Origin: Acidobacteriota bacterium | GTDB taxonomy: Bacteria; Acidobacteriota; Terriglobia; Bryobacterales; Bryobacteraceae | NCBI GenBank assembly: GCA_021788955.1 | Contig: JAJYKC010000036.1 | Coordinates: 1 to 9,911 of the forward strand | Reading direction: 5' to 3' | Length of the DNA stretch: 9,911 nt | Shown: positions 2,184 to 9,911 of the stretch, one piece after another | How positions within the stretch are numbered: position 1 is the stretch's first letter | Layout of the letters: the number at the start of each line of letters is the position of its first letter | Made by a program: the position numbers and the translations under genes | The notes under the pieces: model-generated | Told to the model about the DNA's origin: nothing | What the model saw: only the letters and a program-made list of their open reading frames with translations | Database searches by the model: none

Positions 2184-3599
2184 TCAGAACCCGAAATGCT
2201 TCGGGTCCCTCCCGATCAGCATCGCCGCGAACACCTTCGGCACAAACTCCCGCGTCTCCTCCGGCAGCGCCTGCGTCCGGTATAAATACCAGAAGTTTCT
2301 CTGCTTGATCGGGTCCTGCACCACCCGGTTCACCGCCTGCTTCACCTTGGTCGGACCGCTGTTGTACGCCGCCAGCGCCAGCATCACCGAGCTGCCCGTC
2401 CCGAAATCCAGAATCAGGTCCCGCAGGTATTTCATGCTCGCCTGCGTCGATTTCACCAGGTTCTTGCGCTCGTCCACCCGCCCGTCCACCTTCAGCCCGT
2501 ACGCCCGCGCCGTCGCCGCCGTGAGCTGCCACGGTCCCACCGCTCCCGCCGGGCTCTCCGGCGCCTTCTCGAGCGCACTCTCCACAATCGGAATGTACGC
2601 CAGATCCACCGGCAGCTCGTGTTGTTGCAGCATCGCCCGGATTGTCTGAATCTCGCCCCGATCCGCTCCCAGCGCCCACTCGATCAGCGGCCGGTCCGCC
2701 CCTTCGTCCTGCTGGACATAATGATTCACCCGGTCCACGAAATCCGGCGGAATGCTGTATACCTCCGCCCCGAACTCCGCCATCAGCGCGTGCAGTTCCA
2801 TGGTCACGAAGTCGCCCCGCTGCCGCCCTCCGCCGATCCTGTACAGCAGCGTGTGCTGCAGCGATTCCGCCTCGTTCTGATAATTGTCCAGTTGCGAGAC
2901 CAACTGGTCCGCTTCCGGCCCCTGCGCCTTCTCCAGTTCCCGCTCCAGTTGCTGGATGTGCCCGTCGATCGCCGCCTTCTCCCACTTCATGGTTACGATC
3001 TTCCACGCGCCCAGCCCCGTTACCGCTACCAGCGCCACCGTCAGCGAGTATCCGACAATTCGGAACCGCCGTCGCGTATTCTTGAGCGCCTCCTCGATGA
3101 CGCCCCGCATGATCGTCATCGTCTGCCCGGGCATCCCGTGCGCACGCGCTCGCCGCGCCCGCGCCACCGCCTCTTCGAGCAGTCCCTCGTGCGGCGCAAC
3201 CGCCGCGGGCGGAGCCGCTGCGGCAGATGCGATCTCCGCCGCCGCCGCAGCCGAGATTTCCAAGGTCCGGTCCAACTCTTCCTGCGTCTCCTCCAGCAGC
3301 AGCGCAAATTCCGGCCCCTGGTTGCCGAGTTGAATCACAGCCGGAAAACTGACTTCCGCTTCCGTCACCCGCTCGCCGTTCAGCCACGTGCCGTTGGTGC
3401 TCTCCAGGTCGTGCACCCGGCAGCCCTTTGCGTCACGGTGGATTTCCAGGTGGTATCCCGATACGGTCACCGCGTCCGGACCCGCGACGACCGCGTCGTT
3501 ATCCGGCGCGCGCCCCACGCGCGTCGTGCCCTCCGGCAGCGGAAACCGCGTCCCCGCCGCCGGCCCCGACCGCGCCAACAGCCACGCCTTCTCGGCCAT
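2184..3599 (-). CDS. FHA domain - transmembrane - MltD-like lytic transglycosylase fusion
   Basis: 471 residues. An N-terminal forkhead-associated domain (about 4-102) shows the phosphothreonine-binding landmarks: VGR (28-30), S47-x2-H50 and TNGTWLNG (68-75). An Ala-rich linker and a basic stretch (KNTRRRFR, 173-180) lead to one membrane helix (about 181-201). A charged, probably coiled-coil segment follows (205-250), then a C-terminal SLT lysozyme-like domain (about 303-471). That domain aligns with E. coli MltD: IPIVESAL with catalytic Glu340, SPAGAVGPWQ (349-358), YGLK (367-370) and AAYNSGP (410-416). Family knowledge says such enzymes cleave peptidoglycan glycan strands to 1,6-anhydromuramoyl products. 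The positive-inside pattern predicts a cytoplasmic FHA and a periplasmic enzyme domain. LysM repeats typical of MltD are absent. ATG 3599 follows a GAGGGG ribosome site. It lies 45 nt after the YncE-like gene, likely the same transcript. Coupling Ser/Thr phosphorylation to wall turnover is inference. Confidence 0.9.
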   Translation of the reverse strand: MAEKAWLLARSGPAAGTRFPLPEGTTRVGRAPDNDAVVAGPDAVTVSGYHLEIHRDAKGCRVHDLESTNGTWLNGERVTEAEVSFPAVIQLGNQGPEFALLLEETQEELDRTLEISAAAAAEIASAAAAPPAAVAPHEGLLEEAVARARRARAHGMPGQTMTIMRGVIEEALKNTRRRFRIVGYSLTVALVAVTGLGAWKIVTMKWEKAAIDGHIQQLERELEKAQGPEADQLVSQLDNYQNEAESLQHTLLYRIGGGRQRGDFVTMELHALMAEFGAEVYSIPPDFVDRVNHYVQQDEGADRPLIEWALGADRGEIQTIRAMLQQHELPVDLAYIPIVESALEKAPESPAGAVGPWQLTAATARAYGLKVDGRVDERKNLVKSTQASMKYLRDLILDFGTGSSVMLALAAYNSGPTKVKQAVNRVVQDPIKQRNFWYLYRTQALPEETREFVPKVFAAMLIGRDPKHFGF

Positions 3600-3644: not shown

Positions 3645-4634
3645 TCACCGCTCGATCACCAGCAGACTGAAGCTCCCCGGCACCATAGGCGGCCGCCGTT
3701 TGCCCTGCGCCGCCTCTTCGAATTTCGCCGCCACCACGTACACGCGATGGTTCGTCGGGTCCAGCCCCATGCTCCTCGAGTACTCCGGCGTCTTCAGCGT
3801 CTGCACCACGCGATATTTGTCCGGCGAGTCCTGGTGAATCACCGTCAGCGTCCCGTCCGCACACGCCTCGAAGATGTTCCCCAGCGCCGCATCGTACCCC
3901 GAACTGTCCACGCCCTTGCCGATCGGCACCGTCGCCACCACCTTCCCCGCCCGGTAATCCGAGACCGCCAGCACCCCGCTCCGGCATCCGCTGAACAGCC
4001 GATGATGCGTCACGTCGATCGCCATCGCCACCGGTTGCGTGCATCCCGTCGTCGTCCAGCGCCGCGTCACCTTCAGCGCCCTGCCGTCCACTTCCACCAC
4101 CTCGGCTTTGTCCACCAGGTTGAAGTAGACCTTCCCGTCGCCCGCCGAGGCAAGGTACTCCGGCTTCCCGCCCAACGGGATGTTCGTAATCAGCTTGCCC
4201 GCCGGGTCCACCACCGTCGAAGCGTTCGCATCGCCGTCGGACGAGAACACGCGGTCCGTCGCGGGGTCGTAAATGATCCCGTCCGCGTCCTCTTTCGCCG
4301 GAATCGTGCTCAGTTCTTTGTACGTCTTCAGATCGAACATCCGTATCGTGCCGTCTCTCCCGGAAGTGGCGAACCCGTGCCCTACTTTGTCCACCACCGC
4401 GGTCCCATGCGCGCCGTCGATCGGCGTCACTTCGCCCAGCACCTTCCCCGCTTCGCTCACCACCATCACGCGGTTCTCCCGCGCGACAAACAGCCGGTGA
4501 TTCGGTACGTCCGGAATCACATAATCCCAGCCCCCCGGGCCTCCCAGAACGTACGTATGCGCAACGTGATACCCCTGCGCCGCGAGTGGCATGGCAGCCA
4601 GCGTGAACATGAACGTAAGTGCGATCCTGCGCAT
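3645..4634 (-). CDS. Secreted YncE-like beta-propeller protein
   Basis: 329 residues from ATG 4634. The start is fixed by AGGAG 5 nt upstream and by an immediate signal peptide (MRRIALTFMFTLAAMPLAAQ, cleavage probably after LAA). The mature protein is a run of about seven 40-residue blade-like units typical of YncE/YVTN propellers, for example DYVIPDVPNHRLFVARE, DGIIYDPATDRVFSSD, VAMAIDVTHHRLFSG, SGYDAALGNIFEACADG and SMGLDPTNHRVYVVAAK. These share the D-x3-NHRLFV strand-turn pattern of the family. Such proteins are usually periplasmic or surface binding scaffolds without catalysis; the ligand cannot be read from sequence. Its reading frame is open further upstream to 4691, but that extension lacks a signal peptide and ribosome site. 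The FHA-transglycosylase gene follows at 45 nt, suggesting co-transcription. Confidence 0.85.
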   Translation of the reverse strand: MRRIALTFMFTLAAMPLAAQGYHVAHTYVLGGPGGWDYVIPDVPNHRLFVARENRVMVVSEAGKVLGEVTPIDGAHGTAVVDKVGHGFATSGRDGTIRMFDLKTYKELSTIPAKEDADGIIYDPATDRVFSSDGDANASTVVDPAGKLITNIPLGGKPEYLASAGDGKVYFNLVDKAEVVEVDGRALKVTRRWTTTGCTQPVAMAIDVTHHRLFSGCRSGVLAVSDYRAGKVVATVPIGKGVDSSGYDAALGNIFEACADGTLTVIHQDSPDKYRVVQTLKTPEYSRSMGLDPTNHRVYVVAAKFEEAAQGKRRPPMVPGSFSLLVIER

Positions 4635-4639
4635 TGAAA

Positions 4640-4644
4640 CTCCT
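4640..4644 (-). promoter_or_regulatory. Ribosome binding site of the YncE-like gene
   Basis: AGGAG on the minus strand, 5 nt before ATG 4634. It decides the start in favour of the signal-peptide methionine and against the longer open frame reaching 4691. Confidence 0.7.
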
Positions 4645-4735
4645 TTCTCCGCCCCTGAGTATATCTCCCCGCGCGTCCGGCCGCCCTGCAACCCGTCGTG
4701 CTCTCCTTCACGATATGCGCCTGAAATCCCCGGGA

Positions 4736-4843
4736 ACCGCCCCGCGCGGCTCGGTGGTCTCGCTGTGGGGCACCGGCTTCGGCGGGATCGATCCGCCCTG
4801 CCCCACCGGCGGCCTGAATCCGCCCCAAGCCGTAATCGCCGTC
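4736..4843 (+). pseudogene. Remnant of a Solibacter-type extracellular domain (TIGR03437-like)
   Basis: Plus-strand translation in this gap gives TAPRGSVVSLWGTGFGG, then IDPPCPTGGLNPPQAV. This closely resembles the 'GS-(V/I)-V-(S/T)-(L/I)-x-(A/G)-T-G-x-G...P' segment of the repeat-like C-terminal domain abundant in Solibacter extracellular proteins (recalled as TIGR03437). The resemblance covers only about 36 codons. It ends where the DNA glycosylase stop begins on the other strand, and no matching start, signal peptide or downstream domain is present. I read it as a decayed fragment of a longer gene. It could be chance coding-like sequence, so confidence is moderate. Confidence 0.4.
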
Positions 4844-5432
4844 AAGTGGCGCTCACAAACCGGTTCCCCCTCACGAAAAACCGCAGCGGCAAATCCGCGC
4901 TCCTGGTAATCCCCACCCTCCGCGTCACCGCAATTTCAACTCGCCGCGCGGAGCCACGGTCCAACCCTGGCTCCCGCACCACCAGGCTCCCCCGCGTCAC
5001 ATCCGCCCCGTTCTGCGCGCGCGTAATCCCCATCGCCAGCGTCAGCTTTCCCGGCCCCGACGCCAGGTCTTCCACCTTCCGCGCCGCCGGCCGCCGTTCG
5101 CCCATCAACTCGATTCCCGCCACCGGCTCCAGCGCTCGGATCAGCACGCACCCCGGTTTCCCCTCGCGCTCCGCGATCAGGTTCAAACACTCGTACATCC
5201 CGTAAATAAAGTAGACGTACGCGTGCCCCGGCGGCCCGAAAATCACCCGCGTTCGCTCCGTAATCCCCCGCGCCGAATGCGCCGCCAGATCGTCCCCCCC
5301 GAGATAAGCCTCGGTCTCCACGATGATCCCCGCCGCCGCCCCGTGCACCAGCACTTTCCCCAGCAGCGCCCGCGCCACCTCCACCGTCGGCCGCTCGTAA
5401 AACCCGCGTTTCAGCACCGGACCGAAAGCCAC
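4842..5432 (-). CDS. mpg: 3-methyladenine DNA glycosylase (AAG/MPG family)
   Basis: 196 residues, the usual bacterial length for this family. It excises alkylated purines such as 3-methyladenine from DNA, starting base-excision repair in the cytoplasm. Visible landmarks: LLGKVLVH (23-30); IVETEAYLGGDDLAAHS (37-53), with the catalytic Glu equivalent to human AAG Glu125 at residue 41, Tyr43 and His52; HAYVYFIYGMYECLN (70-84); the base-pocket stretch CVLIRALEPVAG (95-106); and LASGPGKLTLAMGI (123-136). The start is GTG 5432, only 3 nt after the TGA of the isomerase-like gene upstream, so the two are translationally close and surely share a transcript. Neither gene explains the other's function; this is probably an opportunistic operon. 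Assignment is confident; lesion range is inferred from the family. Confidence 0.95.
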   Translation of the reverse strand: MAFGPVLKRGFYERPTVEVARALLGKVLVHGAAAGIIVETEAYLGGDDLAAHSARGITERTRVIFGPPGHAYVYFIYGMYECLNLIAEREGKPGCVLIRALEPVAGIELMGERRPAARKVEDLASGPGKLTLAMGITRAQNGADVTRGSLVVREPGLDRGSARRVEIAVTRRVGITRSADLPLRFFVRGNRFVSAT

Positions 5433-5435
5433 GCC

Positions 5436-6350
5436 TCAGCCGCGCCTCCGGATCGCCGCAAACACCGGCGCCATCCGCCCATAGCACACCCGCGCCGCGG
5501 CCATCGGATCATACCCAGGCTTGCCAAATACCATCGCGCTGACCTCCGCGTTCACGAACCCGCGGTATCCCAACTCGCCCAGCAGCCGCGCATACTCCTT
5601 GTAATCCGTGTCGCCGTCGCCCGGCAGCAAAAACTCGAAATGCTCCGGTGTCCCCTTCGCGTCCTTCACGGTAATCATCGCCGTATACGGCAGCAGCTTC
5701 CGCAGGCTCGCCGCCAGCCCGAACCCGCCCACCCGCATGTGGCTGTAGTCGTAAATGAGGCGGATCCGCGGGCTCGCCACCTGCTCCATCATCCACACCG
5801 CTTTTTCCGGCGTGTCCATCGCCTGCCCCGCGTGCGGCTTCACCCCGATCACGAAATCTTCTCTCTCCGCCAGTTCCGCCCACCCCCGCAGTTCCGCGGC
5901 CATCGCCACTTTCCGGCTCTCCCACTCCGCCGTCTTCAACCCCAGCATCGTGTCCATACACGCCGGTTTCCCCCGGGCGAGTTCGTGCGTCACGCCCGCC
6001 GCCAGCTTGATCCGCTCGGCGTTCGATGCCCGGCTCTGCGGCGTTCCGCGCAGCACCAGGTCGTCCATCACCGCCGCAACCGTCAGCCCGGTCTCGTCCA
6101 ACACCCGCCGGATCGCGCTGCGCTCACCCGCCGTCATCCGCGCCGCATCCGCCGGCCATCCCTGCCGCAGGCAAAGCTCCACGCCGTCGAATCCAATCCC
6201 CGCGATGGCTCGCAGCGCCGTCTCCGTGGGCACCGTCTTCATCCCATAAGTCCCAATCGATAGCCTCACCTCCGCGCGCTGGGCCGCGCCCGCCGCGGGC
6301 ACCGCCCCTCCCAACAACGCCACGAACTCCCGCCGCCTCAATCGCTCCAT
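5436..6350 (-). CDS. Tat-exported sugar phosphate isomerase/epimerase-like TIM barrel
   Basis: 304 residues from ATG 6350 (a TTG at 6356 in the same frame would add two; a TGA lies directly before it). The N-terminus has a twin-arginine motif (RRREFVALLGG, 5-15) and an Ala-rich cleavage region ending near AGAAQ. The rest fits the xylose-isomerase-like / AP-endonuclease-2 superfamily. Barrel strands carry likely metal or substrate residues: GFDGVEL (Glu58), KPHAG (His173), IYDYSH (Asp201, His204), ITVKD (Lys229, Asp230) and NAEV (Glu269). Export of such an enzyme after cofactor loading is typical for acidobacterial and planctomycete paralogues. The substrate is unknown, probably a sugar or inositol derivative. 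It runs into the DNA glycosylase gene with a 3-nt gap and diverges from the cupin gene. Confidence 0.85.
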   Translation of the reverse strand: MERLRRREFVALLGGAVPAAGAAQRAEVRLSIGTYGMKTVPTETALRAIAGIGFDGVELCLRQGWPADAARMTAGERSAIRRVLDETGLTVAAVMDDLVLRGTPQSRASNAERIKLAAGVTHELARGKPACMDTMLGLKTAEWESRKVAMAAELRGWAELAEREDFVIGVKPHAGQAMDTPEKAVWMMEQVASPRIRLIYDYSHMRVGGFGLAASLRKLLPYTAMITVKDAKGTPEHFEFLLPGDGDTDYKEYARLLGELGYRGFVNAEVSAMVFGKPGYDPMAAARVCYGRMAPVFAAIRRRG

Positions 6351-6394
6351 AGCCAATCAGCGTAGCGCACCTTCCTCTGCGCCTGGCTTCGGTG

Positions 6395-6400
6395 TATAAT
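6395..6400 (+). promoter_or_regulatory. Candidate -10 box for the cupin gene
   Basis: A perfect TATAAT stands in the 72-nt divergent gap, ending 22 nt before ATG 6423 and implying a short leader of about 15 nt. The hexamer 17 nt upstream (6372-6377, TTCCTC) is a poor -35. The box is nevertheless conspicuous in such GC-rich DNA. I see no equally good promoter for the divergent isomerase gene. Confidence 0.5.
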
Positions 6401-6422
6401 TCCTCCCAGTTCGCGAGGCTCT

Positions 6423-7217
6423 ATGTCGCTTTCTCGCCTTCTTCCCCGTCTTTGTCTTATCCTGATCGCCGTTTGCGCGCCCGCCCAAACCGTCCGGCTC
6501 ATCCGTTTTTCCGAAAGCCAGCCTTTCCACATGGGCAGTGTCACCTCCCGCCGCATCATCGAGCCTCAAATCGGAGCGAAGCTCCTGACCCTGAACTACA
6601 CCGAATCCCAACCCCCCGCCGAATTCGCGCAGCACGTCCACGATCGTTCCGACGACAACATCATCCTCCTGCAAGGCCAAGCCGATCTCCGCCAGGGCGC
6701 AACGCGCACCCCGTTCCACGCCGGCCAATGCGCCTTCGTCCCTGCCGGCCAGATTCACGGCACCATCACCACGGCGTCCGACACCGTCATGATCAGCTTC
6801 CAGGTCCCGCCCGACCTCGCGCTCTACACCGGCGCCCGCGATTCCTCCCGTCCCGGCGCCGCGCCTCCCAAAGGCAAGATCACCCCCGGCGCCGTGAAAT
6901 TCGTCGATTTCGCCCAGCACAACGGCATCTTCCTCGGCCCCGAAATGGGTGCCACCCGCGCTACCGCCGCCCACCGCCGGTTGCACCCGGGCGAAGCGTT
7001 CCCCATGTCCCTTGCCCGCGGCACCGAAGGCCTCATCTTCGTCTGGAAAGGCGCTATTCTCTCGGTCGTAGGCCGCTCGGCCGAAGGCCGCCGCGTCCTC
7101 GCCGCCAACGAGAAAGACACCATCTTCCTCTCCGGCCCCGTTCGCCTGACCGTCTCCAACCCCGGTCCGGCCCAGGCGATCGTGTTCCAGGTCCAGACCG
7201 TGCCCCCACGTCAATAG
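6423..7217 (+). CDS. Secreted double-cupin protein
   Basis: 264 residues from ATG 6423, with GAGG a few nt upstream. A signal peptide (LLPRLCLILIAVCAPAQ) probably ends after APA at residue 21; the residue before Cys18 is Val, so a lipobox is unlikely. The first cupin barrel (about 55-130) has HVHDRSDDNIILLQGQ with metal-ligand candidates His71 and His73. Asp77 or Asp78 sits where the usual Glu would be, and PAGQIHG supplies His112. A second barrel-like half (about 175-258) has the cupin beta pattern (LHPGEAFPMSLARGTEGLIFVWKG) but lacks the metal histidines. The protein is thus a bicupin with one plausible metal site, in the periplasm or outside the cell. Substrate and reaction cannot be inferred. 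Confidence 0.8.
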   Translation: MSLSRLLPRLCLILIAVCAPAQTVRLIRFSESQPFHMGSVTSRRIIEPQIGAKLLTLNYTESQPPAEFAQHVHDRSDDNIILLQGQADLRQGATRTPFHAGQCAFVPAGQIHGTITTASDTVMISFQVPPDLALYTGARDSSRPGAAPPKGKITPGAVKFVDFAQHNGIFLGPEMGATRATAAHRRLHPGEAFPMSLARGTEGLIFVWKGAILSVVGRSAEGRRVLAANEKDTIFLSGPVRLTVSNPGPAQAIVFQVQTVPPRQ

Positions 7218-7295
7218 CCAACAGCCGCCAGTGATAACGCGTGGCATCGAGCCGATCGCGGCGCGCCGATGCTGGCCGTGGTTTCGGCCTATCCA

Positions 7296-7320
7296 CGCCA
7301 AAGTTCGCCAGAATTCGCCA
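7296..7320 (+). repeat. Three CGCCA motifs at exact 10-bp spacing
   Basis: CGCCA starts at 7296, 7306 and 7316. The two full 10-bp units are CGCCAAAGTT and CGCCAGAATT (8 of 10 identical), with a third partial unit. One-turn spacing puts them on one helix face about 90-115 bp upstream of ATG 7412. They could be an operator or chance. The rest of the 194-nt gap (7218-7411) holds no clear promoter or terminator, only a 5-bp stem at 7274-7289 and an A5-loop mini hairpin at 7384-7396. Confidence 0.25.
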
Positions 7321-7398
7321 CCGCTCCGGCGGCGCGCCTTTGCGTGCTCCAATTTTGCTGGTTCCCCCTATCATCTGGAGGAAGGCGAAAAACGCCGG

Positions 7399-7405
7399 AA
7401 AGGAG
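7399..7405 (+). promoter_or_regulatory. Ribosome binding site of the small secreted protein
   Basis: AAAGGAG lies 6 nt before ATG 7412. It decides the start over the longer frame open to 7241 and agrees with the signal peptide that follows. A 4-bp hairpin with five A's in the loop (7384-7396) stands directly upstream, leaving the site unpaired. Confidence 0.75.
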
Positions 7406-7411
7406 CTCGAA

Positions 7412-7858
7412 ATGAAAGACGTCAGTTTCATGAAAGCGGGCCTCGCGGCTCTCGCTGTCACAGTTCTGTTGTCGGCAGCGCCGGCAAATGCGCAAACCCA
7501 GGTCACCCGCATCGATATCCCGTTCGTGTTCGGCGCCGGAAACGAAATGCTGCCCGCCGGGCAGTACGAGATGGTGCTCGATCGCTTCCCCCGCATCCTG
7601 CTCCGCAACACCACCGGGAAGACCTTCCATTCCATCGCGCTCTCCGCGGTATGGGGAAAGCGCTCCTCGGCGGATGTCTCGCCGGCCACCCTGCGCTTTG
7701 AGCGGTACGCCGGAACCATGTTCCTGACCGCCGCGTGGGCGCCCGGCCAGGAGGACGGAAGAACCGTTCTGCCGTCCGGAAGACAGGCCGAAGCCATGCG
7801 CGCCAGCCTCAACGAGAGCCACCCCGCGCCCGTGATGATCGATGCCAGCCTGAAGTAG
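7412..7858 (+). CDS. Small secreted acidobacterial protein of unknown function
   Basis: 148 residues. It has a classic Sec signal peptide (positive MKDVSFMK, hydrophobic AGLAALAVTVLLSA, cleavage after ANA at about residue 28). The mature all-beta-looking domain begins VTRIDIPFVFGAGNEMLPAGQYEMVLDRFPRILLRNTTGK. The pattern 'I/V-P-F-x-F-x-x-G-x-x-x-LPAG-x-Y-x-V' is, in my recollection, a recurrent short secreted family expanded in Acidobacteria with no assigned function. No catalytic motif or cysteine pair is visible. It is probably periplasmic or extracellular. It stands alone between the cupin gene and a strong hairpin at 7900-7958 that likely ends its transcript. Confidence 0.85.
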   Translation: MKDVSFMKAGLAALAVTVLLSAAPANAQTQVTRIDIPFVFGAGNEMLPAGQYEMVLDRFPRILLRNTTGKTFHSIALSAVWGKRSSADVSPATLRFERYAGTMFLTAAWAPGQEDGRTVLPSGRQAEAMRASLNESHPAPVMIDASLK

Positions 7859-7899
7859 CGCCCGCGTTAGCGAGCGCCCACTGAACCCCCGGACACCCC

Positions 7900-7958
7900 G
7901 CAAAAAGGGGACTGACTCGAAATTCGCTTTTTGAATTTCGTGTCTGTCCCCTTTTTGC
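7900..7958. terminator. 26-bp-arm inverted repeat with T-tract; probable terminator and dispersed repeat
   Basis: Arms 7900-7925 and 7933-7958 pair at 24 of 26 positions around a 7-nt loop. The outer 13 bp (GCAAAAAGGGGAC with GTCCCCTTTTTGC) and inner CGAAATTC/GAATTTCG are perfect. The stem ends in CCCCTTTTT on the plus strand and, by symmetry, the same on the minus strand, so it suits intrinsic termination of the upstream secreted-protein gene at 7858. AAAAAGGGGAC-type arms recall REP/RAYT-associated repeats found in many genomes; no transposase is present here. The structure is seen directly; termination and mobility are inferred. Confidence 0.75.
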
Positions 7959-7997
7959 CTTTACGCATCACTTCTGCAATCGCGCAATTCCCTTGGA

Positions 7998-8003
7998 TAG
8001 AAT
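7998..8003 (+). promoter_or_regulatory. Candidate -10 box for the response regulator
   Basis: TAGAAT (5 of 6 to consensus) with a weak CTGCAA -35-like hexamer 18 nt upstream (7974-7979). Transcription from about 8010 would leave a 17-nt leader to GTG 8027 or a 47-nt leader to ATG 8057. Confidence 0.35.
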
Positions 8004-8056
8004 GGGATTGGTGGCGCGAGGTTCACGTGCTACGCGCCCGCCGTTCCCGAATTGAA

Positions 8057-8686
8057 ATGTCTTCTGCCCCCCATATTTCTCTCGTCATTGTGGACGACCA
8101 CCCGGTGGTGCGCGATGGCCTCAACGCCATCCTGGCCACCCAGCCCGATATGACCGTGATCGGCGAGGCGGCGACCGGCGCCGAGGCGATCCAGATCATT
8201 ACAAGGCTGCGGCCCAATGTCGTCCTCCTGGATCTCTTCCTTCCCGATATCGTTGGAAGCGAGGTCATCGCCCGCGTCGCCAAAAGTTATTCCGATGTCC
8301 TGTTCATCGTGCTCACTTCCGCCGCGGGCGATGAAGATATTTATCGTGCCATCGAGGCGGGCGCCCGCGGCTACCTCTTCAAGGACATGGCGCGCAAAGA
8401 ACTTTTGCAGGCCATCCGCGCGGTGGAAGCCGGGCAGCGCTACATCCCCGGCGAAGTGGGCAGCCGCATTGCCGAGAACCTCCCCCGGCCCGGATTGAGC
8501 GCGCGCGAAATCGAAGTCTTACAGTGCGTGGCTGGAGGGCTGCGGAACAAGGAGATCGCCTTCCGCCTGGAAATCAGCGAGGCTACCGTCAACGCCCACC
8601 TCAAACACATTCTCGAGAAACTGAACGTGAGTGACCGCACCCTCGCCGTCACCACCGCGCTCAAGCGCGGCATCATTCATCTGTAG
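8057..8686 (+). CDS. NarL/FixJ-family response regulator
   Basis: 209 residues: receiver domain (about 7-125) plus LuxR-type helix-turn-helix (about 146-206). Receiver landmarks are the acidic pair Asp13-Asp14, phosphoacceptor Asp59 in VVLLDLFLPD, Thr87 in IVLTSA and Lys109 in GYLFKDM. The DNA-binding domain has LSAREIEVLQCVAGGLRNKEIA and the recognition helix in SEATVNAHLKHILEKLNVSDRT. It should bind DNA as a dimer after phosphorylation by a histidine kinase, none of which is encoded here. The start is uncertain: ATG 8057 begins six residues before the first strand but lacks a ribosome site, whereas GTG 8027 has GAGG 5 nt upstream and would add ten residues. Its stop is 11 bp from the convergent XRE gene stop. 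Target genes unknown. Confidence 0.93.
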   Translation: MSSAPHISLVIVDDHPVVRDGLNAILATQPDMTVIGEAATGAEAIQIITRLRPNVVLLDLFLPDIVGSEVIARVAKSYSDVLFIVLTSAAGDEDIYRAIEAGARGYLFKDMARKELLQAIRAVEAGQRYIPGEVGSRIAENLPRPGLSAREIEVLQCVAGGLRNKEIAFRLEISEATVNAHLKHILEKLNVSDRTLAVTTALKRGIIHL

Positions 8687-8697
8687 TCAACCCGGGC

Positions 8698-9441
8698 TCA
8701 GTCGATCCTGCCGGCCACCGCCGTTACGCGCCCGACTACTTCCACCTCGCGCGGATATGCGAACGCGCGTGCGTGGCAGGAAGACAGCGAGTGGGGCACC
8801 GAGATGAGCTGCCCGGGAGCAAGATCGCACCACGAGCAGATATATCCGTTGCGGGTTTCGAGAAAGTAGACCGGCCGCTCGAATTCGTTGCGCCACACCG
8901 GCGCCCGCGGGAGTTTCTCGGATTCGTCGATTTGCACCAGCGCACCGGGGCGGATCAGCGGATCCATGGTGCGGTCCTCCAAACCGATCAGCGCATAACG
9001 TCGGTTCGGGGCATGCACGTGGCCCCGTAAAGGACTCTCGCCGCCGATCGAGACGAGGCGCGTATCAAGGACTCCCGGCGGAGATTGCGGCCGCTGCCCG
9101 TTTCCCGGATTCAGATACAGCTCCAGCAACTCGCTCACACTGGTCCCGTAGATCACCGAGAGGCTGTAGAGTTTCTGAAGACTGGGCGACGACCGCTCGT
9201 TTTCAATCTGCACCAGGCGCGCGTGCGAGATGGCAAATTCGTGTCTGCCACGCTCGCGCGCGATCCGGCGGCTGTGTTCCGCTACCTGGCGCGTGGTGAG
9301 TCCGAACCGCAGGCGCAGGCGGCGCAGTGCCTCACCCGGCAAGCTGTTGAGCCGGAGCGGCCGGACCGCGCCCGGCGCCCACCCTGGACGCATGAGCGTC
9401 GTAACCGCCGCGGTCTCTGCGAGCGGTATCGTGTTTGTCAT
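8698..9441 (-). CDS. XRE-family regulator with degenerate S24/LexA-like C-terminal domain
   Basis: 247 residues. The N-terminal helix-turn-helix (about 34-110) is of the long-insert kind I associate with Acidobacteria: EALRRLRLRFGLTTRQVAEHSRRIA, an insert (RERGRHEFAISHA), then RLVQIENERSSPSLQKLYSLSVIYG. The C-terminal part (about 148-245) follows the S24/LexA fold pattern: YALIGLEDRTMDPLIRPGALVQID, VYFLETRNGYICSWC and VEVVGRV. The nucleophile position preceding Met159 is Thr158 instead of Ser, and no lysine stands near the expected general-base strand, so self-cleavage is unlikely and the domain may sense or dimerise instead. ATG 9441 lies 6 nt after the lasso-like precursor stop, with AAGGA overlapping the junction, so it is co-transcribed with that gene. 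It may autoregulate the RiPP operon (inference). Confidence 0.85.
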   Translation of the reverse strand: MTNTIPLAETAAVTTLMRPGWAPGAVRPLRLNSLPGEALRRLRLRFGLTTRQVAEHSRRIARERGRHEFAISHARLVQIENERSSPSLQKLYSLSVIYGTSVSELLELYLNPGNGQRPQSPPGVLDTRLVSIGGESPLRGHVHAPNRRYALIGLEDRTMDPLIRPGALVQIDESEKLPRAPVWRNEFERPVYFLETRNGYICSWCDLAPGQLISVPHSLSSCHARAFAYPREVEVVGRVTAVAGRID

Positions 9442-9447
9442 AAATCC

Positions 9448-9597
9448 TTACTCGGAATCCGCCGGTTCGGGATCTTCGATCAAATCGTTGCCGCCGGACC
9501 CGCTCCAGCTCCCGTCCAGGTCGTTGCCGCTGAGCCCGACGCCCAGGATGACTTCCTGCGCCTCGCCCACGTGAATCAGTTTCGGCTTTTCGTACAT
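9448..9597 (-). CDS. Lasso-peptide-type RiPP precursor (49 aa)
   Basis: Begins MYEKPKLIHVGEAQEVILG. The leader fits the lasso recognition pattern Y-x2-P-x-L-x3-G (Tyr2, Pro5, Leu7, Gly11), which binds the PqqD-like B1 protein in known systems. Counting to the usual Thr(-2) reaches Ile17, so the predicted core starts at Gly19 and has Asp at its eighth residue (Asp26). That is the geometry for an amide ring between the Gly1 amine and the Asp8 side chain. The core would be 31 residues, rich in Gly, Ser and Asp, with one Trp, two GNDL copies and an acidic DPEPADSE end, long for a lasso. An alternative boundary puts Gly21 at position 1 and Asp28 at 8. AAGGAG 5 nt upstream fixes the ATG. Direct neighbours are a B2-type protease (45 nt upstream) and the XRE gene (6 nt downstream). 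Precursor identity is well supported; lasso topology is inferred. Confidence 0.8.
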   Translation of the reverse strand: MYEKPKLIHVGEAQEVILGVGLSGNDLDGSWSGSGGNDLIEDPEPADSE

Positions 9598-9602
9598 GTG
9601 TT

Positions 9603-9608
9603 CTCCTT
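9603..9608 (-). promoter_or_regulatory. Ribosome binding site of the precursor gene
   Basis: AAGGAG on the minus strand, 5 nt before ATG 9597, the strongest ribosome site in the region. It chooses the 49-residue precursor over the 60-residue frame starting at 9630 and would suit high-level translation of a peptide substrate. Confidence 0.75.
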
Positions 9609-9642
9609 CTTTCTCTCGAATGAAATGCAATGCCTCTCGCCG

Positions 9643-9911
9643 TCAAAAGCGGTCGAGAACATTGAACTTTTTGCGGTAGAGCTGCGAATCGCCGACTACG
9701 CGCCCGCCCACCTCCACCCAGGCATGGCTCAGGAACGGCACCGCGCGAAATCCGATCACCACGTCCGCCTGAATGCCTTGGGCGCGCAGCATTCGCGCCG
9801 TCACCACCGACCGCTGCAAGCACAGCAGCGGTTTCCAGTAAAACGAGCTCACGCAGGCCACCGCGCGGCATACCGCGGAAACGTCCCGCCCCTCTGGTCC
9901 TGTGCAGAAAC
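9643..9911 (-). CDS. Lasso-peptide B2-type leader protease (transglutaminase-like), partial
   Basis: C-terminal 88 complete codons of a gene that enters from beyond the right edge and stays open to 9911. The fragment matches the lasso B2 / Transglut_core3 family. The nucleophile region LLCLQRSVVTARMLRAQGIQADVVIGFR carries a Cys-Leu-x-Arg-Ser motif, FLSHAWVEVGG carries the catalytic His, and GDSQLY supplies an Asp at the end of the triad; the protein ends NVLDRF. Family knowledge: the enzyme cuts the leader from a precursor bound by the PqqD-like B1 partner, before or during macrolactam formation by an asparagine-synthetase-like enzyme. Those partners are not in the window. A GTG at 9861 is in frame, but the sequence before it (ending DVSAVCRAVAC) continues the family, so it is not the start. 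Confidence 0.88.
   Translation of the reverse strand, partial: FCTGPEGRDVSAVCRAVACVSSFYWKPLLCLQRSVVTARMLRAQGIQADVVIGFRAVPFLSHAWVEVGGRVVGDSQLYRKKFNVLDRF

Follow-up and report, generated by a model that had tools for sequence, protein, structure and literature searches.

The right-hand end of the window (the whole 9,911-nucleotide stretch analysed) very probably belongs to a lasso peptide cluster of uncultured Acidobacteriota, the product of which is predicted to have a ring closed between Gly1 and Asp8 and which would be controlled by a two-component system of its own. Two open reading frames were present there on the minus strand, a fragment of a B2-like protease and, 45 nt further on, a 49-codon precursor gene (Table 1), just as the original prediction had described, and both the Y-x2-P-x-L-x3-G leader and the ribosome site ascribed to the short peptide were found. 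The pairing had been judged unlikely to arise by chance and this still stands, but it is carried by conservation, namely by the homologues of the precursor and the adjacency of B2 and precursor at related loci. The leader motif was matched once in the six frames of the window against a mean of 0.27 in 200 mononucleotide-shuffled windows and, because shuffled windows yield it at that average, is weak evidence by itself.

The protease fragment scored 83.6 bits against PF13471 (curated cut-off 26) and 67.3 bits against the lasso B2 model NF033537 (curated cut-off 33), which bears out its reading as a lasso B2 protein with a Cys/His/Asp arrangement and places it in no other transglutaminase family. 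It was 55% identical to its match at locus L001. The Cys (in CLQRS) and the His (in SHAW) were kept in all eight aligned B2 sequences and the Asp (in VVGDS) in six of them, being replaced by Gly in L072 and L073. A sequence search of the PDB with B2 gave no match at E <= 0.1; when the genome collection was scanned with the fragment, 34 distinct loci came up.

Table 1. Positions of cluster genes and other features in the window and on the contig L002 that carries the upstream genes
Feature	Contig	Position	Strand	Basis or remark
NarL/LuxR-type response regulator, cluster-linked	window	8057..8686	+	PF00072, PF00196; orthologs 62-70% identical
XRE-type HTH protein between precursor and regulator	window	8698..9441	-	probably bystander
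Lasso precursor A, 49 aa	window	9448..9597	-	ORF reads 9597-9448; homologues, profile
Predicted core, 31 aa	window	9451..9543	-	predicted ring Gly1-Asp8, Trp13, acidic tail
Predicted leader, 18 aa	window	9544..9597	-	Tyr(-17), Pro(-14), Leu(-12), Gly(-8), Ile(-2); Tyr/Pro/Leu spacing as in the main text of PMC10368454
AAGGAG, likely ribosome-binding site of precursor	window	9603..9608	-	5 bases ahead of ATG, read from sequence
Lasso B2 leader protease, C-terminal part, transglutaminase-like	window	9643..9895	-	PF13471, NF033537; stop at 9643, runs off right edge
Contig-edge bases matching L002 in its B1 region and not in B2	window	9896..9911		probable assembly join, shared 8-mer
PF17648 protein	L002	4268-4792	same orientation as B2	
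Cyclase C, asparagine-synthetase-like	L002	4789-6510	same orientation as B2	PF00733 and GATase_7
Histidine kinase with propeller repeats	L002	between C and B1	opposite strand	Y_Y_Y, HisKA_3, HATPase
B1, PqqD-like	L002	9556-9885	same orientation as B2	PF05402

The upstream genes were located on a second contig, L002 (JAJYLS010000112.1, from an Acidobacteria bin), which ends inside B2 and overlaps the edge of the window at 134/135 nt; the cluster around the window is assembled from these two contigs. A PqqD-like B1 and an asparagine-synthetase-like C had been expected within about 10 kb upstream and both were there, B1 directly before B2 and C ~3 kb before B1, and both also stand with B2 and the precursor on a single contig in L001, L003, L072 and L073. 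At the extreme end of the window, 16 bases match L002 at a place 321 bases upstream of the start of the B2 match, across a shared AGAGGGGC, which is most likely a wrong assembly join at the contig end and may otherwise reflect a true deletion in the strain that was sampled. When the L002 bin was searched with positions 7000-9911 of the window and 40 of 118 candidates were scored, near-identical stretches were limited to the overlap at the edge, 26 further matching bases there and some short-repeat copies. The bin contained no precursor match and no ortholog of the regulator, both of which sit on the window; such gaps are expected if window and L002 adjoin each other in one organism or come from two very close ones. 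The organism behind the window probably belongs to the same order as L001, a Bryobacterales MAG. A dispersed repeat is shared by bin and window. Positions 7898-7968 of the window form an almost perfect hairpin (RNA fold energy -38.0 kcal/mol), a dispersed REP-like element with copies at seven places in the L002 bin that are 86-96% identical, some of them matching both strands because the element is a palindrome. Elsewhere in the window a single protein with an FHA domain and a lytic transglycosylase (SLT) domain is encoded at 2184-3599 on the minus strand.

The L002 B1 protein scored 49.3 bits against PF05402 and, at 36.2 bits, lay below the curated cut-off of 70 of NF033530. Its only match in the PDB was TbiB1 (5v1u, 5v1v; E 3e-9), with which only residues 24-97 align, at low identity. 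The best NCBIfam match of C was the lasso cyclase model NF033535, at 155.9 bits far under the curated cut-off of 525, and C also matched hydroxyamidotransferase and asparagine synthetase B. All six C proteins examined (L073, L075 and L077 left out) had the SGGLDSSS motif and, with their starts assumed, Ser or Gly at residue 2, not the Cys of glutaminases. A cyclase match (E <= 1e-30) was found in 12 of 257 genomes; the distant G070, G094 and G242 among the matching genomes were not used. A PF17648 match occurred once per genome, at the cluster, in seven of nine genomes examined and was lacking from the other two, and other genomes of the order carry PF17648 without a lasso cluster. The PF17648 protein adjoins C and has a YjbR-like predicted fold; a literature search for PF17648/DUF5519 found nothing.

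The whole cluster was found on one contig in L001 (Bryobacterales), L003 (Solibacteraceae) and in L072 and L073 of the same order, where the genes follow in the order PF17648, C, kinase (on the opposite strand), B1, B2, precursor and response regulator, the last varying in strand. The precursor gene stood directly after B2 at all seven fetched loci with both genes on one contig (L001, L003 and L072-L076). L074 and L076 were rearranged, with kinase and regulator still beside the cluster, and the 9 kb of L074 that were read contained no B1 match, while the short contig L075 carries C, B1, B2 and the precursor. L077 carried B2, C and part of B1; a scan for the leader motif revealed no precursor on it, and no close kinase or regulator was present in the genome to which it belongs. 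The genome G167 has a second cluster that is split over contigs, with B1, B2, part of C and no precursor found on L078, while L079 has a precursor next to a fragment of C and lacks B2. Other acidobacterial lasso loci carried two or three successive precursor genes, at 7564 and 7869 of L007 and at 2572, 2798 and 3028 of L008, with YxxPx[VI]xxxG leaders and a common C-terminal PAYDLD[DE].

An ABC exporter had also been expected by the cluster and, among the neighbours scanned, was seen at L074 only. Among 18 further neighbour proteins scanned with Pfam (from L001, L003, L072, L073, L074, L076 and L079) there was one ABC exporter, which stands after C in L074 and has relatives elsewhere that are only 28-41% identical; none was among the neighbours scanned at L001, L003, L072, L073 and L076. 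Two MacB/FtsX-type permeases lay some kilobases away in L079, and the other 15 proteins were not exporters by Pfam or were without a family. The XRE-type HTH gene next to the precursor was considered as a regulator of the cluster and gained no support, there being no relative at that place in L001, L003 and L072-L076; relatives were found elsewhere in nine of 11 genomes and were absent from the other two. In favour of such a role, two XRE-type HTH relatives (4226-4930 and 6124-6900) lie 3-6 kb from B2 in L005, which is a lasso locus but belongs to a different family.

Relatives of the window precursor were found at 86% identity over its full length and at 71% over 63% of its length. It matched none of the NCBIfam models, and against the lasso leader model NF033521 six of ten aligned precursors matched at E <= 1, at least 2 below its cut-off. 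A profile built from ten precursors found 186 proteins at E <= 10, 120 of which were listed; these and three from the loci make up 123 distinct precursors, all of which could be placed by the leader motif. Weak matches in G070, G171 and G176 (E 8.7e-5 to 0.0033) were left out of the members. Tyr(-17), Pro(-14), Gly(-8) and, in the core, Gly1, Gly6 and Asp8 were invariant in 123/123, a conservation part of which reflects selection because the sequences were gathered by profile. Position -12 was Leu in 119 precursors and Val in four. The usual penultimate Thr of lasso leaders was absent, residue -2 being Ile (106) or Val (17) and never Thr. Core residue 2 was variable (with Ile, Val, Leu, Tyr and Cys among the residues seen there), none of the Ser or Thr residues in the core was invariant, and residue 13 was aromatic (Trp, Tyr or Phe) in 114 of the 123, which would suit a role as plug. 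The tail is acidic, with EF, EY or EW past core residue 16 in 108 of the 120 listed proteins, mostly at 19-20. In P0002 and P0093, the closest relatives among those listed, EFA is displaced to core 26-28; the window peptide has EPA in its place. The mass computed for the window core after loss of one water, with the tail untrimmed, is 3027.285 Da.

These features can be compared with several described systems. Removal of the leader by B1 and B2 has been shown for BsfA of Bradymonas sediminis, and the main text of the paper (PMC10368454) describes a cluster like the present one in its YxxPxL motif at -17 to -12 (Tyr(-17), Pro(-14), Leu(-12)), its Ile(-2), Gly1 and Asp8, and its separate B1 and B2 along with C. 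It differs in having a kinase that phosphorylates Ser3 of the core, and no kinase of that type was among the neighbours scanned here with Pfam; the words "regulator" and "histidine kinase" are absent from that main text. The same paper reports lasso precursors with Ile or Val(-2) in Acidobacteriaceae. The claim that the core resembles none known is only partly right, since Gly1 and Asp8 with Ile(-2) are the arrangement of BsfA. The soil acidobacterial clusters 40.1, 482.1 and 44.1, as tabulated in PMC9064862, share B1, B2 and C with acidobacterial best matches, and 482.1 and 44.1 also share a similar precursor size; the penultimate Thr is replaced as well (Leu, Ser). Unlike here, C is placed after B2 and before the precursor in 482.1 and 44.1, and there is a kinase in 482.1 and there are ABC transporter genes in 44.1, while the tables for the three clusters name no two-component genes and no PF17648. 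The humidimycin cluster of Streptomyces (with related MS-271 regulators) likewise has a histidine kinase and response regulators within a lasso cluster, but is actinobacterial, of class I with disulfides and equipped with the exporter genes D1-D4, as described in PMC7168211. Lasso clusters from Acidobacteria, leaders with Ile(-2) and two-component systems within a lasso cluster have thus each been published before. A family that combines the fixed core with a propeller kinase and a PF17648 partner was not met in the literature searched, mainly freely readable main texts; searches for lasso peptides with Solibacter gave no papers and with Bryobacter, judged by title, nothing on the topic.

In the favoured reading, B1 as a PqqD-like recognition element would bind the YxxPxL leader, and B2 would recognise Ile(-2) and cut after Leu(-1). 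C would then use ATP to activate Asp8 and link it with the Gly1 amino group. The resulting ring would have eight residues, and the tail would pass through it and be held there, probably by Trp13. The fixed core predicts this Gly1-Asp8 ring, which is that described for BsfA. Asp10 is nearly as conserved as Asp8 (122/123), and cleavage after Gly would give a nine-residue ring closed on Asp10, but a ring that closes on Asp10 or begins at core residue 2 is very improbable: the sole exception to Asp10, the L079 precursor with Leu at core 10, keeps both Gly1 and Asp8 and so favours these as the ring residues, residue 2 varies where Gly1 is invariant, and the leader spacing fixes Gly1 as it does in BsfA (main text of PMC10368454). 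It is also improbable, if slightly less so, that the enzymes make a branched-cyclic, unthreaded macrolactam or some other peptide. Such a product would be compatible with the long acidic tail, with the abundance of Gly and Ser in the window core and with the score of C against the albusnodin/ikarugamycin macrolactam cyclase model (130.1 bits, cut-off 300), whereas the ring residues, the leader spacing and the enzyme set are those of lasso precursors and the common aromatic residue at core 13 would suit a plug.

The lasso peptide cluster is most likely placed under a dedicated two-component system, judging from the comparison of the kinase and regulator sequences across genomes, in which the beta-propeller histidine kinase, probably a periplasmic sensor, and the response regulator of the window would control its expression. 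Hydrophobic stretches near residues 12 and 733 would place the propeller part of the L002 kinase in the periplasm; at the same hydrophobicity cut-off the L001 kinase had only the first and the L072 kinase only the second. Kinases and regulators of such types are numerous in these genomes, and their orientation and place differ among the loci, as would suit genes that merely neighbour the cluster. That they are unrelated neighbours is nevertheless unlikely, given that the best match to the L002 kinase scored 759-861 bits in the seven genomes that match the precursor strongly, against at most 411 bits for other copies, the kinase of the second G167 cluster (508 bits) apart. The best regulator matches were 62-70% identical to that of the window and other copies at most 49%. 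Six of the seven genomes had the best matches of both kinase and regulator beside the cluster; G122 (L075) had them on a different contig, at the end of which the regulator sits. The second cluster of G167 was more distant (kinase 37%, regulator 44%), and G238, which has B2 and C and no precursor found, had no close kinase or regulator. Among 257 genomes of the order, seven had an ortholog of the regulator (E <= 1e-62), and exactly these seven matched the precursor at E <= 1e-10; the chance of this co-occurrence would be 7e-14 were the genomes independent, a figure that is too small because the seven share descent.

A more far-reaching reading takes the mature lasso peptide for the very signal that the periplasmic beta-propeller kinase of its cluster perceives, a lasso-based autoinduction that would serve cell-cell signalling. 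Gly1, Gly6, Asp8, Asp10, the aromatic residue 13 and the EF motif of the tail would then form a receptor-binding face, to which the PF17648 protein would be an accessory. This is put forward tentatively, as something conceivable that is on balance doubtful.

Acidobacterial lasso clusters have been predicted before, yet in the expression study of 40.1, 482.1 and 44.1 no product was detected in heterologous hosts (PMC9064862). What was an orphan B2 fragment at the end of a contig can now be linked with a family of precursors, at least 123 of them distinct, whose core is unusually fixed. The sensor pair, which shares its genomes with the precursor, provides a handle on the timing of peptide production and makes the question of signalling testable.
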